The notes below the pieces were generated by a model. It was not told the DNA's origin, did not search any database, and saw only the letters and a list, made by a program, of their open reading frames with translations. From positions 1-42,551 of the IMG/VR virus record IMGVR_UViG_3300030329_003374: a DNA stretch of 42,551 nt. The stretch is one strand, 5' to 3'. Source of the DNA: a virus. This document shows positions 21,889 to 34,913 of the stretch, one piece after another (position 1 is the first letter of the stretch; every line of letters begins with the position of its first letter). The position numbers were made by a program, and so were the translations under genes.

Positions 21889-22369
21889 AAAACTCCTTCT
21901 TCACCCACTCGTCCACCAGCTCCCGCGAGAAGTTAATGCATATGGAGGCGCTCGTCTTGGCGTTTACGATGATCTCGCCCAGAGCGTTCCTCCGAGCAAC
22001 CGCATCCACGGTTCCCCCCTCCTCGTCCATATACTTCAAAATATACCAGTCACCCGCCTCCATCTCTGGCTCACCGTGCAGCTCTGTAATATCCATAAAC
22101 ACAAAGGGGAAAAGCACAGGATTCCCTGTAAACAGGGAAAGCGCAGGATTCCCCGTAAACGGGGAAAGTACAGGGTGTTCAACAACAGCGGGACAAGAAG
22201 CAAACCCGCCCGTGTGCAGCTCTCCTGCACCTCTATTCCCTGCACCAAATTCCCCCCGGTCACCGCAATCACGGGCCGGGGTCAGCGATGGCTTGTTGCC
22301 AAGTTCAGCTCCCTCAACCAGAAACGGCAGCCTTTCTAACTGCCGGGGTTGGTTAACTACTCGAACCAT
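21869..22369 (-). CDS. Protein containing FTGNPxL repeats, DNA palindromes inside gene (166 aa)
   Basis: I choose the ATG at 22369, two bases after the TAG of the upstream gene. The C-terminal 75 residues (MDITELHGEPEMEAGDWYIL onwards) look like a compact small domain. The N-terminal about 90 residues are of low quality and include two 9-residue repeats (SPFTGNPAL, SLFTGNPVL) that come from tandem palindromes in the DNA. The real gene might therefore start at 22096, leaving 22097-22371 noncoding. No function is recognised. Confidence 0.45.
   Translation of the reverse strand: MVRVVNQPRQLERLPFLVEGAELGNKPSLTPARDCGDRGEFGAGNRGAGELHTGGFASCPAVVEHPVLSPFTGNPALSLFTGNPVLFPFVFMDITELHGEPEMEAGDWYILKYMDEEGGTVDAVARRNALGEIIVNAKTSASICINFSRELVDEWVKKEFYGEEMD
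22106..22175. repeat. Tandem 27-bp repeats with compensatory palindromes
   Basis: Two perfect palindromes with a TAAA centre stand 27 bp apart: TTCCCTGTAAACAGGGAA (22122-22139) and TTCCCCGTAAACGGGGAA (22149-22166). The T-A to C-G change in the stem is matched on both arms, so pairing is preserved. They are embedded in a repeated context GGGAAAG-ACAGG that also occurs before the first and after the second palindrome (22106-22120 and 22162-22175). This could be a protein-binding site, RNA hairpins or a packaging signal. Confidence 0.75.
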
Positions 22370-24696: not shown

Positions 24697-24713
24697 GGCC
24701 GCATAGTGCAGCC

Positions 24714-25349
24714 CTAATCCTTTGCCCTCATGGAGTAGCTGACGCAGTCGAGCTCTATGACCTCGTTGTCGCCGCGAATCATCCTGTCAGCGATCCTCAC
24801 ATCGATGTCGGAGATGTCCTTCATGCTCAGGTTCGAGGTGATCACCGTCCACTTGCCCAGTCGCTGATCCAGCATCGAGGCGAGCTGCCTCTGGCTAAAC
24901 TCGGTTGAGTACTCAGAGCCCAAGTCATCGAGCACAAGGAAGTCGGCATCCGCGCAGCTCTGGAAGGCGCTGAACGCTCCACCCCTCATCTCGTTACACA
25001 GCTTGCTGAATTTCTTAAACAAGCCGTGCTTCACCAGCTCGGCACCTCGCTTCATGTAGAACTGGCCCTTGTCCTCCCAAGCCCTCCAGATGCCCTTGGC
25101 CAAGTGGGTCTTCCCGGTGCCCGAGTTGCCAACCAGCGAGAGCCATCTGGGAGCCGTCCGCCTGTCAGCCATGTCACGGCCAAACTCAGCGGCGGCGCGT
25201 AGTGGAGTCATCAGTGCCATATCCTTGCAGGGCTTAAACTCGTTAAAATACCTCGCCCACATCTTCAGTTGCTCGCTGCTTAGCGGCTCCCGAGTAGTTG
25301 GCTTTGGCTTTGTCGTTATACTCTGAATTATTTGCTGTATGTCTCGCAC
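24714..25349 (-). CDS. DnaC-like helicase loader, AAA+ ATPase (211 aa)
   Basis: This is a DnaC/IstB-type ATPase that would load the host replicative helicase onto the phage origin. Walker A is GNSGTGKT (74-81), Walker B is FLVLDD (about 137-142), sensor I is in VITSNLS (about 168), and Arg residues in RIADRMIR may form the sensor II/arginine-finger region. The start is a GTG with AGGAAGGA eight bases upstream. It overlaps the initiator gene by 107 bp in another frame. Together with the initiator it is the analogue of lambda O and P. Confidence 0.85.
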   Translation of the reverse strand: MRDIQQIIQSITTKPKPTTREPLSSEQLKMWARYFNEFKPCKDMALMTPLRAAAEFGRDMADRRTAPRWLSLVGNSGTGKTHLAKGIWRAWEDKGQFYMKRGAELVKHGLFKKFSKLCNEMRGGAFSAFQSCADADFLVLDDLGSEYSTEFSQRQLASMLDQRLGKWTVITSNLSMKDISDIDVRIADRMIRGDNEVIELDCVSYSMRAKD

Positions 25350-26157
25350 TGTTCTTCCTTCCTGTTATTTTTTCGGGAAACAACCCTATCCAACCCTGAG
25401 CCATGCTCTGCTCCATCGTCTCGATGGCCACAGCGGCTCCCTCTCGATTCATCATCTTGAGCTGCGCCTTCACCATGTTCTGGTTGAGCGGCTTGTTGAT
25501 GTCTCGACGGTGATCGAGCCACTCATTCCATGTCCTGAAAAAGTCGGGATTGTCCAACCTCTCAGGTAATATATATTCTACTCTATTATTCTTATTATAT
25601 ATATAGTAGTAGGGGGGTTTTTTGCGATTAGGCTGGTAACTTTCCAACAACTCTCCCTGTTTTTTCTTTTTCCTTGTTGTTTTTGGTTTTTTAGAGGGAT
25701 TGTTCCGCGCAGACTTGCCAGTCACTTGTTGGTTTGTTGCCAGACACTTGCCAGTCACTTGCTCGTCACTTGTTGGTGACTTGCCAGTCACTTGCTCGTC
25801 GCTTGCCGTAAACTTGCCAAGCGCCTTCTTCGCTGCTTCGCGGCAATTTGTAAGCACCTCCAAGGTCATCTCGGAGGTGTCCAGCCAGTTCTGGAACTGC
25901 ATCGCAGCATAGTGAATCGAGGAGCGTTTCCGCTTCAGCACCCGGGCCACTAGGTCGGATGACAGTCCCCTGTCCTTGTACAGCACAAAGACCACAGCGA
26001 ACCGTGGAGTGATTAGCTCTGCCTGTTTTCGCATGGAGCGCAGATCGTCGAGGGTGACCCCGAAGAGCTGGGCTATTGCCTGAGCCGCCTCGAGAGCCCC
26101 GCTTATGTCGGTCGTGTAGACGAGGTTCTGCGGCTTGTTGTTGTTCTTGTTTTTCAT
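25243..26157 (-). CDS. Replication initiator with DnaA domain IV-like N-terminus (304 aa)
   Basis: Residues about 30-92 (FGVTLDDLRSMRKQAELITP, then RFAVVFVLY and LKRKRSSIHYAAMQ) follow the pattern of the DnaA C-terminal DNA-binding domain, including the segment equivalent to 'RDHSTV'. Residues about 118-150 are three 11-residue repeats around DEQVTGKS, encoded by the iteron array. A very basic linker (KKPKTTRKKKKQG) and a C-terminal domain (WNEWLDHRRDINKPLNQ) follow, the latter probably contacting helicase loader or helicase. The origin appears to lie inside this gene, as in lambdoid phages. Confidence 0.8.
   Translation of the reverse strand: MKNKNNNKPQNLVYTTDISGALEAAQAIAQLFGVTLDDLRSMRKQAELITPRFAVVFVLYKDRGLSSDLVARVLKRKRSSIHYAAMQFQNWLDTSEMTLEVLTNCREAAKKALGKFTASDEQVTGKSPTSDEQVTGKCLATNQQVTGKSARNNPSKKPKTTRKKKKQGELLESYQPNRKKPPYYYIYNKNNRVEYILPERLDNPDFFRTWNEWLDHRRDINKPLNQNMVKAQLKMMNREGAAVAIETMEQSMAQGWIGLFPEKITGRKNSARHTANNSEYNDKAKANYSGAAKQRATEDVGEVF
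25567..25700. other. AT-rich tract, putative DNA-unwinding element
   Basis: The stretch 25567-25611 is almost pure A/T with TATATAT runs and is followed by T-rich blocks up to about 25690. It adjoins the iteron array on the side that is downstream in the initiator gene, the same order as in the lambda origin. The compositional contrast with the GC-richer neighbours is plain. Confidence 0.68.
25713..25822. repeat. Iteron array of about ten 11-bp repeats, putative replication origin
   Basis: The word ACTTGCCAGTC begins at 25713, 25746 and 25779. Related 11-mers (ACTTGTTGGTT, ACTTGCTCGTC, ACTTGTTGGTG, GCTTGCCGTAA, ACTTGCCAAGC) fill the array at an exact 11-bp step. Every third copy is nearly identical, giving a 33-bp higher-order repeat. 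The 11-bp step places sites on one face of the helix, as expected for initiator binding. The array lies in the initiator gene beside the AT-rich tract. Confidence 0.8.
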
Positions 26158-26165
26158 GTCGTTGT

Positions 26166-26636
26166 TTATTGTTTACTTAATCCATAATCCAGTATCAGCA
26201 GTGCATCTGCTGTCTTGTCTGTAATCTTCTTCTCGAGCTCGGGGTGCCTCAGTATGGCCTCCCTCTTCAGCATCCTTTTCCACTCGCTCTTATCCACCGT
26301 CCGAGAGGAGCGTGTGCCCATGTCGAGCCACTTCTGCCATGTCTGGGGGCGAACGAGGTTCACCTTGCAGCCACTGGCGTTGAGGCACTCGATGGCGTAC
26401 AGGGCACCCAGAAGGCACCCGTAGTTGGCACCGAAGTTGAACATCCTGCTGCCGGGGTGAGGGGTGCCGATGTAGCCCCCAACCTGTTCGACCCAAGCGA
26501 CCTTGGGGAGGTGCCGTGTGACGAGCTCAGCTATGGCTGGCTCACCCTTGGGCATACGGTGCAGCGTAATGGCTCCACCTGTGTCATGCACGGCCACTCC
26601 ACCTCCAGCGCCGGGGTCTATCCCGATGGTCACCAT
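26166..26636 (-). CDS. RuvC-like Holliday junction resolvase (156 aa)
   Basis: This endonuclease of the RNase H fold would resolve branched DNA before packaging. The catalytic acids are visible: D7 in TIGIDPGAGGG, E50 in VAWVEQVGG, and D140/D144 in TDKTADALLI. The ATG at 26636 overlaps the end of the exonuclease gene by a few bases (ATGGTGA). Frames reaching further upstream are an artefact of reading through that gene. Confidence 0.86.
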   Translation of the reverse strand: MVTIGIDPGAGGGVAVHDTGGAITLHRMPKGEPAIAELVTRHLPKVAWVEQVGGYIGTPHPGSRMFNFGANYGCLLGALYAIECLNASGCKVNLVRPQTWQKWLDMGTRSSRTVDKSEWKRMLKREAILRHPELEKKITDKTADALLILDYGLSKQ

Positions 26637-27304
26637 CCGATCTTCTCCCAGATGGCCTTGGTGAGCCTGATGTCGTTCTCGAGGTAGTCGAGGGCAGCCT
26701 CCCTGTCGGTCTTCCACAGCTCATGGAAGTGCTCCCCAGAGCCAGCCTTCTCGCCCACACCCAGAAATCTGGCCAGCCTGTCCAGACTGATCCGCTTCTG
26801 GAACTCGCCGCAGGCATACACCTCCATCAGGTCAACGAAGTTCTTCCGCCACTTCACTGGCTGATAAAACTCGAAGGGGAATGTAATCCCGTACTTCATC
26901 GAGCGCCTCAGGAGGAACGGCCAGTCGAATGAGTTTGAGTTGAACCCGATCCAAGTGGCCGAGAAGACCGGCCTGTAAAGCGCCCAGAATGCCTCCAGAA
27001 TCGATTTCTCGCCCATGTCGGCTATCACATACACCTCGGGGTCATCCGAGAACGCATAGCCGATGGCGAGCACCCTGCCCGTGGTAGCCTCTAGAGGTGC
27101 CTTGGCGATGGCGTCCTTCGACGCCTTCTTGCGGTACGCCTCGATGGCCTCCTCCTTCTTGTAGGTGGCTGGCACCTTGACCGGGGGCAGCATCTCCTTG
27201 ACTCGCCCGAGGGGCTCAGGGCCGGTCTCGATATCGAAACAGACCCCGAGCTTGCTCGGTGAATCGCCCAGCTTGGGAACCCTCGGCTCAGAATGGAACT
27301 TCAT
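26630..27304 (-). CDS. DEDDy 3'-5' exonuclease (224 aa)
   Basis: This is a DnaQ/PolB-type proofreading-like exonuclease without a polymerase. ExoI is CFDIETGP (D24, E26), ExoII lies in WIGFNSNSFDWPFL, and ExoIII is YLENDIRL (Y207, D211). The ATG at 27304 overlaps the last codons of the SSB-like gene. The 50 residues upstream in this frame are only the shadow of that gene. It is likely used in recombination or DNA repair together with the SSB-like protein. Confidence 0.85.
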   Translation of the reverse strand: MKFHSEPRVPKLGDSPSKLGVCFDIETGPEPLGRVKEMLPPVKVPATYKKEEAIEAYRKKASKDAIAKAPLEATTGRVLAIGYAFSDDPEVYVIADMGEKSILEAFWALYRPVFSATWIGFNSNSFDWPFLLRRSMKYGITFPFEFYQPVKWRKNFVDLMEVYACGEFQKRISLDRLARFLGVGEKAGSGEHFHELWKTDREAALDYLENDIRLTKAIWEKIGW

Positions 27305-33851: not shown

Positions 33852-33872
33852 CAGAAAGGACAGAACATAATG
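33852..33872 (+). promoter_or_regulatory. CAGAAAGGACAGAACATA leader before the integrase
   Basis: This third identical copy leads to the integrase ATG at 33870. Integrase is therefore under the same translational signal as the accessory genes. Confidence 0.75.
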
Positions 33873-34913
33873 ACACTATACACACGATCACCAAAGGCCG
33901 GGGCGACATGGTACGCCGAGGAGCGAGTAAACGGGGTGCGGGAGAAATTCTGCACCAAGACAAGCGACAAGGCGGAGGCCAGAAAAGTGGCCGAGAAACA
34001 CTTCGCCGGTGTGCTGCTGGGCATTGAGACCCCAAGCAGGGCAAAACGCTCTCAGAGGCTCGATATGGAGCAGCTAGAGGCATCCTACCCGATATTCGCT
34101 GCGGACATCGATGGGAAGACCCGCGAGGGGAACCTCAACTCGCTCAAGGCAGCTCGCCGCGAGGCAGGCGTCGATGATCCCTCGATCATGTCGCCTGAGA
34201 CTTGGGTCATCTACAAGGCGAAGAAGCTCGAGGGCAAGCAGGGTGCCGAGAAGGCCAGCGCACTGCGCTCCCTGCGCTCCTGTGAGACCAAGATTCGCAG
34301 CCTGTTCCGCAAGGACATCAGGCCGCTGTACGGCAACCTACCCGAGCGGTTGGTTGCGTTCCTCTCACAGCCCAAGACCAAGGCACCCCCGGTCAGCTAC
34401 ACGCTTCCGCCAAAGGCGCTGATAGATAAGACATGGGAACTGTCAAGGGAGCTCGCCACTCTGGCGCCGAAGGCTCACTCGGCCTTTATCATGGCTGCCA
34501 CAGGGGGGCTCAGGGTGAAGGAGATTCTCGGCTTTAGACAGGAGTGGGTTAATTACCACGCTGAGATGACCAAGCCCGAGCCCACACTCACCATCCCCGG
34601 CAGCGAGAGCCTCTTCCAGACCAAGTCGAGGAAGGCTCGCACCATCCCGATCGGCAAGGCGTTCCTCGCTGCTGCCTGCGAGGGCATCACCGAGAGCGAC
34701 ATCGCCACGCTCAACACTTGGATGAAGGACAAGGTTGGCTGGACTACCCAGAAGGGTGCACATGAACTCCGCAAGTTATACGGGGCACAGGTGGCCACAG
34801 GCTACGGTCTCTATGTCGCACAGCGCCTGCTCGGGCACAGTGATCCCAGCATCACGGCAGCCTACTACGCTGACCTGTGTGAGGTGCCCCGAGTGGTAGT
34901 GCGGGAGGGTTGA
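33870..34913 (+). CDS. int: Tyrosine recombinase, phage integrase (347 aa)
   Basis: This protein integrates the phage into the host tRNA gene. An N-terminal arm-binding-type domain opens with LYTRSPKAGATWYAEERVNG, and a core-binding helical domain spans about 65-170. The catalytic domain contains R215 (TGGLRVKEILG), a beta-hairpin Lys (K252 or K255 in TKSRKARTIPI), H298-x-x-R301 (HELRKLYGAQ), H323 (LLGHSDPSI) and the nucleophile Tyr332/333 (ITAAYYAD). The full set is present, so it should be active. The attP site begins about 90 bp downstream. Confidence 0.93.
   Translation: MTLYTRSPKAGATWYAEERVNGVREKFCTKTSDKAEARKVAEKHFAGVLLGIETPSRAKRSQRLDMEQLEASYPIFAADIDGKTREGNLNSLKAARREAGVDDPSIMSPETWVIYKAKKLEGKQGAEKASALRSLRSCETKIRSLFRKDIRPLYGNLPERLVAFLSQPKTKAPPVSYTLPPKALIDKTWELSRELATLAPKAHSAFIMAATGGLRVKEILGFRQEWVNYHAEMTKPEPTLTIPGSESLFQTKSRKARTIPIGKAFLAAACEGITESDIATLNTWMKDKVGWTTQKGAHELRKLYGAQVATGYGLYVAQRLLGHSDPSITAAYYADLCEVPRVVVREG

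Follow-up and report, generated by a model that had tools for sequence, protein, structure and literature searches.

Where does this phage begin to copy its DNA, and could that site lie inside the gene of the very protein that would recognize it? The window (the whole stretch of DNA analyzed, 42,551 bp, which is the entire IMG/VR virus record IMGVR_UViG_3300030329_003374) carries at 25567-25822 a run of short direct repeats and an A/T-rich tract within a single gene, a region for which a lambda-like replication origin had been predicted. In our joint reading, to which we assign a probability of about 0.7, this region is the replication origin of the phage, situated within the gene of its own initiator: the initiator would bind the repeats, the tract would open and a helicase loader would be recruited.

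The initiator gene (25243-26157) encodes a protein of 304 aa with a predicted DnaA-IV-like N-terminal domain, a linker modeled at low confidence and an O-like C-terminal domain. It is read from the minus strand, a correction to the original prediction; in gene order, therefore, the repeats lead and are followed after ~100 bp by the A/T tract, within the same gene and not directly adjacent. The predicted DnaC-like loader gene does follow the initiator: it encodes a DnaC/IstB-like AAA+ helicase loader (24714-25349, minus strand; PHROG 50, 3.8e-28; Pfam IstB_IS21, 2.6e-7) that is 52-76% identical among relatives. Initiator and loader share 107 nt (25243-25349) in different frames, and an overlap of about 105-120 nt is seen again in relatives, with conserved residues in both proteins. 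RuvC-like and exonuclease-like genes precede the initiator, the former coding for a RuvC-like Holliday junction resolvase (26166-26717, minus strand; PHROG 1770, 4.2e-18).

The repeats form ten contiguous 11-bp direct units without gaps (25713-25822, minus strand), putative iterons that code for the linker. Both the starts of ACTTGCCAGTC at 25713, 25746 and 25779 and the filling of the array by about ten 11-mers at exact 11-bp steps had been described before, and both were confirmed. Read on the gene (minus) strand, nine units terminate with CAAGT or CAAGC, and the remaining one with CAACA. TRF independently found the array, with periods of 11, 22 and 33. Moreover the best lag-11, lag-22, lag-33 and lag-44 self-matches of the whole window all fell within the array, and its combined period-11 score stood out from the rest of the window with z = 12.

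The same letters encode three 11-residue copies around DEQVTGKS, which are present in the protein as predicted, and the strongest single-lag match is at 33 nt; both would be expected of a peptide of 11 residues multiplied by 33-nt tandem duplications and serving the protein only. However, 11 is not a multiple of 3, so that the same DNA word recurs in all three reading frames and matches at lags 11 and 22 separate DNA from protein. These matches were 63/99 at each lag, while synonymous recodings averaged 42.9 and 42.0 respectively, and none of 3000 recodings reached the observed values. Thus the array is a DNA feature beyond the repeated peptide. Furthermore, the linker (residues 115-172) was modeled with very low confidence, as for a disordered stretch (pLDDT under 50), suggesting that the part encoded by the repeats is probably disordered, and the protein tolerates change in it. 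Together with the relatives described next, which lack the peptide yet have the 11-bp step, these results make a role in the protein alone very improbable.

Relatives were reached via the terminase, which gave 39 loci; searches by initiator or loader alone found no close relatives in viral contigs, and blastn of 24700-26200 against phage records gave no match. Orthologues of the two-domain initiator, 26-53% identical to that of the window, were found in L002, L003, L006, L009 (= L018), L011 (= L013) and L014, that is, in six distinct relatives after merging of the two pairs. The terminase of L002 is 95% identical to that of the window while the initiators are only about half identical, suggesting that the initiator evolves faster or gets exchanged. 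The DEQVTGKS peptide is missing from all six relatives and the sequence of the repeat unit varies among them, yet the 11-bp step is present in the same region of the gene. Compared with synonymous recodings, L006 and L013 showed the step clearly and L018 and L002 marginally; in L003 and L014 it was borderline or not above the recodings. When 88-bp segments were ranked within each relative's own 12-22 kb locus by the summed matches at lags 11, 22 and 33, the period-11 score of the linker region was the highest of all in the window, L002, L006, L018 and L013; in L003 and L014 it belonged to the top 0.01% of the locus. None of the control periods 10, 13 and 14 ever ranked so, and 16 or 17 gave isolated highs in L018, L014 and L002. 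Thus the repeats were not kept only as protein, an outcome that would have spoken against the original prediction; the opposite was found, with the peptide lost and the 11-bp DNA rhythm retained.

Which part of the initiator could read this rhythm? The N-terminal domain (residues 19-115; 25813-26103, minus strand) is a predicted DNA-binding domain resembling DnaA domain IV. Its predicted model matched the M. tuberculosis DnaA-DBD (3pvp_A) with Z 15.4 at 1.7 A over 96/96 residues (VIA-align), the runner-up being E. coli domain IV (1j1v, Z 14.5) and unrelated folds following from Z 5.8 down; Foldseek agreed in ranking DnaA domain IV first. A profile built from the initiator family matched DnaA structure chains at 3.6e-8. 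Structure comparison and family profile thus agree with the DnaA domain IV fold proposed earlier for the N-terminus, and the suggested HMM comparison with Pfam Bac_DnaA_C gave a divided result: the initiator of the window scored 22.5 bits (1.2e-4), under the curated cut-off of 31.5 bits, whereas five relatives scored above it (41.7-48.1 bits). An AAA+ ATPase domain (domain III) was not found in the 304-aa initiator, for which Pfam at E up to 1 gave Bac_DnaA_C only. In E. coli, DnaA domain IV contacts bases through residues 399, 423, 432-435 and 438-439 (PMC5043019). The R-D-H of most relatives is replaced by R-K-R in the initiator of the window, a change that fits an altered DNA target without proving one.

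The C-terminal part contains a feature absent from the original prediction, an O-like domain (about residues 183-290; 25288-25611, minus strand). PHROG 678, 'replication initiation O-like', matched residues 122-291 (5.6e-11), and annotated O proteins matched residues 193-288 by tblastn. The N-terminal domain of the lambda O type is absent: a DnaA-IV fold is found instead, and the O-like PHROG match starts at residue 122. By tblastn no phage record was seen with both halves of the initiator, the matches to the C-terminal part, or to the DnaA-IV part of L018, being in separate records; a profile scan of genome contigs with the initiator gave two weak matches, and we found no report of a DnaA-IV/O-like initiator in the open-access literature.

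The second element of the proposed origin, the A/T-rich tract (25567-25611, minus strand), codes for residues 183-197 (YYYIYNKNNRVEYIL) and is a putative unwinding element. It had been called nearly pure A/T, and with 86.7% A+T it holds the top 45-bp value of the 42.5 kb window; none of 1000 synonymous recodings of the initiator gene reached this content. Five of the six relatives (L006, L003, L018, L014 and L013) have the A/T peak of their gene at the homologous position, and L002 has it elsewhere. At 25590-25625, a CCCCCC immediately 5' of TACTACTATATATA recalls the order of GC cluster and DnaA-trio in bacterial origins, and P/T-Y-x-Y coding may account for this pattern. A DnaA-trio reading of TACTACTA beside the CCCCCC was set aside on two grounds: i) the exact motif is not in the tracts of the relatives; ii) the initiator that would read it has no detectable AAA+ domain.

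From the repeats, the tract, the predicted folds, the gene order and the conserved rhythm we infer how initiation might proceed at this locus. Several initiators would bind the ten 11-bp repeats via their DnaA-IV-like N-terminal domains, one per repeat, and would sit on nearly the same face of the DNA; the stacked complex would put strain on the A/T tract, situated about 100 bp farther on in gene order, and open it; the O-like C-terminal domains would recruit the DnaC-like loader encoded next door; and the loader would deliver the replicative helicase to the opened strand. Direct-repeat arrays do act as control sites in plasmids, and in principle the array might likewise be an autoregulatory operator, a copy-control site or a partition site for the initiator gene rather than an origin; but it lies mid-gene and not at a promoter, it is coupled to the A/T tract, and initiator genes of unrelated phages contain comparable arrays (see below), so that we consider a control site improbable.

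How far, then, does such an origin resemble known ones? The term lambda-like holds for the layout: ori-lambda, too, has its iterons and its A/T tract in the initiator gene (gene O, with P next) (PMC7466680, PMC5043065), the initiator likewise has an O-like C-terminal domain and a loader gene stands immediately 3'. Taken strictly, the term fails: in lambda, O dimers bind iterons that are inverted repeats of 19 bp (PMC5043065), whereas those of the window are direct repeats of 11 bp. The differences are thus i) ten 11-bp direct repeats versus four 19-bp inverted repeats; ii) a DnaA-IV N-terminal domain in place of that of O; iii) an AAA+ DnaC-like loader; iv) the separation of about 100 bp between array and A/T tract. 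Gene 38 of Bacillus phage SPP1 (gp38 replisome organizer, followed by the loader gp39) contains in its oriL in-gene direct repeats and an A/T-rich unwinding element as well (PMC6316719), and SPP1 has a second origin, oriR, besides oriL. In our best reading, 25567-25822 would be an initiator-gene origin of a variant form, working like ori-lambda or SPP1 oriL and standing outside the strict lambda family.

A further likeness concerns spacing. In E. coli oriC, weak DnaA sites stand in two clusters of four, with 2 bp between sites (PMC6070618), and in vivo DnaA favours boxes spaced by 2 or 3 bp (PMC11317965). These low-affinity arrays have a step of 9 + 2 bp, one orientation per cluster and DnaA domain IV as the reading domain (PMC6070618, PMC11317965), all of which may hold for the array of the window as well; the window differs in that no AAA+ domain was detected in its initiator, the array lies in coding sequence and the units are unlike the DnaA box. 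A DnaA box of 9 bp with 2 bp added gives a step of 11 bp; the units of the window stand head to tail at this step, and their split into a 9-bp site and 2 bp is an assumption. Discussions of such spacing in DnaA usually invoke contacts made by the ATPase domain, of which no trace was found in the initiator here. Should domain IV by itself pack at 11 bp, the DNA-binding domain would set the spacing.

The likeness to DnaA boxes differed among the relatives, and since the test was devised after the units had been seen, all of the following p-values are optimistic. The in-phase units of L018 are similar to the DnaA box TGTGGATAA, which one unit matches exactly, and were equaled by 4/1000 recodings and 3/1000 permuted motifs; the likeness was weaker in L013 (2/1000 recodings, 85/1000 permuted motifs) and L006 (21/1000 and 32/1000 respectively). 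The units of the window and of L002 showed no such likeness, the array of the window matching the DnaA box TTATNCACA no better than did recodings or permuted motifs. L018 keeps the usual RDH motif and has DnaA-box-like units, and L002 keeps the histidine without such units. As for DnaA boxes as such, three of them at 11-bp steps were found in at least 120 viral stretches (L266-L385); among the matches listed, a recognizable DnaA-IV ORF was present in the fetched DNA of 0/120, and the boxes lay inside an ORF of at least 160 aa in 1/120.

The array might instead be an origin with a reader other than the DnaA-IV domain, be it a different protein of phage or host or some other region of the initiator, and DnaA-IV would then do something else, such as binding host oriC or DnaA boxes. 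Stand-alone DnaA-IV genes in other phages bear on this: they adjoin a different initiator in L016 and L129/L130, which have related loaders, they precede, by about 1 kb, an initiator of a different type in L022, L026 and L027, and they stand beside a separate initiator in L197 and L168, an arrangement in sister phages and beyond that speaks for a different reader. In L026 and L027 (L026:6962-7060) the initiator gene has repeats spaced by 22 bp and partly palindromic, with units such as TATCACAGTGATA, and in L022 it has related, less regular ones. Thus in this phage group binding domain and repeat type vary together, and the placing of repeats in the initiator gene is retained as a principle. 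Stand-alone phage DnaA-IV proteins (for example those of Pelagibacter phages HTVC100P and Greip; PHROG 27829) have the same Bac_DnaA_C domain and are annotated as replication initiation; unlike the initiator of the window, they are short (roughly 140-190 aa) and have no annotated O-like C-terminus, and no clear 11-bp array was seen near their genes.

Viral contigs were also scanned as DNA only for five CAAG, the core of the units of the window, at 11-bp steps, with this one core word and one control step of 13 bp. The scan gave at least 119 stretches (L147-L265), in at least 46 of which (at least 39 after removal of near-duplicates) the array was enclosed by an ORF of 160 aa or more on the same strand; the full 13-bp control scan gave 24 stretches, none inside such an ORF. 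Among the matches listed, 25 of the 29 ORFs run against PHROGs (28 of one alignment plus L239) matched replication-initiation, DnaD-like loader, primosomal or O-like families, a biased estimate because the 29 had been picked by eye from the 39 as real-looking genes. Those of L147, L179, L235 and L263 had no match to replication families in PHROGs; of the further ORFs, L151 and L236 matched a DNA-binding-protein family. A/T content was higher after the arrays than before them (medians 0.75 versus 0.67; Wilcoxon p = 0.002, 29 arrays). Example arrays are L168:4300-4520, L197:4350-4560 and L240:4672-5436.

The N-termini of the array-bearing initiators were varied (DUF1376, DnaD-like and others), and a DnaA-IV gene was present in only 2/119 of the CAAG stretches among the matches listed, by which a general link between 11-bp CAAG arrays and DnaA-IV genes was rejected. 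Initiators with DnaD-like, DUF1376 or primosomal N-termini (L168, L197, L229, L240 and others) have the same 11-bp CAAG linker array as the window, often followed by an A/T-rich stretch and in some cases with an O-like C-terminus, but their N-terminal domain differs from that of the window. Such arrays are therefore not specific to DnaA-IV, and the scan strongly backs origin repeats and backs less their reading by DnaA-IV. The occurrence of these arrays with quite different N-terminal domains again favors another reader. Against it, i) the initiators of the clade of the window gave no predicted DNA-binding fold other than DnaA-IV; ii) the sequence of the array drifts while its step is kept, as expected of an array tracking a changing binding domain; iii) DnaA-box-like units occur in L018, which keeps RDH, although L002 has the histidine without them. 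On balance we consider a different reader possible but less likely. More speculatively, the phages may share a common origin layout in which 11-bp CAAG-type linker repeats are retained while N-terminal folds, DnaA domain IV included, are exchanged, by either convergence on the 9+2 spacing or a shared reader; we regard this as possible rather than probable.

Read as an origin within its initiator's gene, the locus would unite two textbook ways of starting replication in a single small protein: the binding domain of DnaA and a gene-internal origin of the lambda type. Since that protein apparently lacks the ATPase motor of DnaA, it can probe how much origin opening needs that motor. Moreover the 11-bp rhythm is usable for searching: one such pattern, run blind over a large viral collection, retrieved initiator genes, and origins could be located in this way in many uncultured phages.

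Several minor features of the window deserve mention. GC skew, proposed earlier as a check, turns near 28-29 kb; this turn tracks gene orientation, does not point to 25567-25822 and is uninformative as to the origin. The name podovirus, also given earlier, is weakly supported, by an SU10-type portal. A 27 bp tandem repeat of 2.4 copies lies at 22111-22174. An integrase gene is found at 33870-34913, suggesting that the phage is probably temperate.
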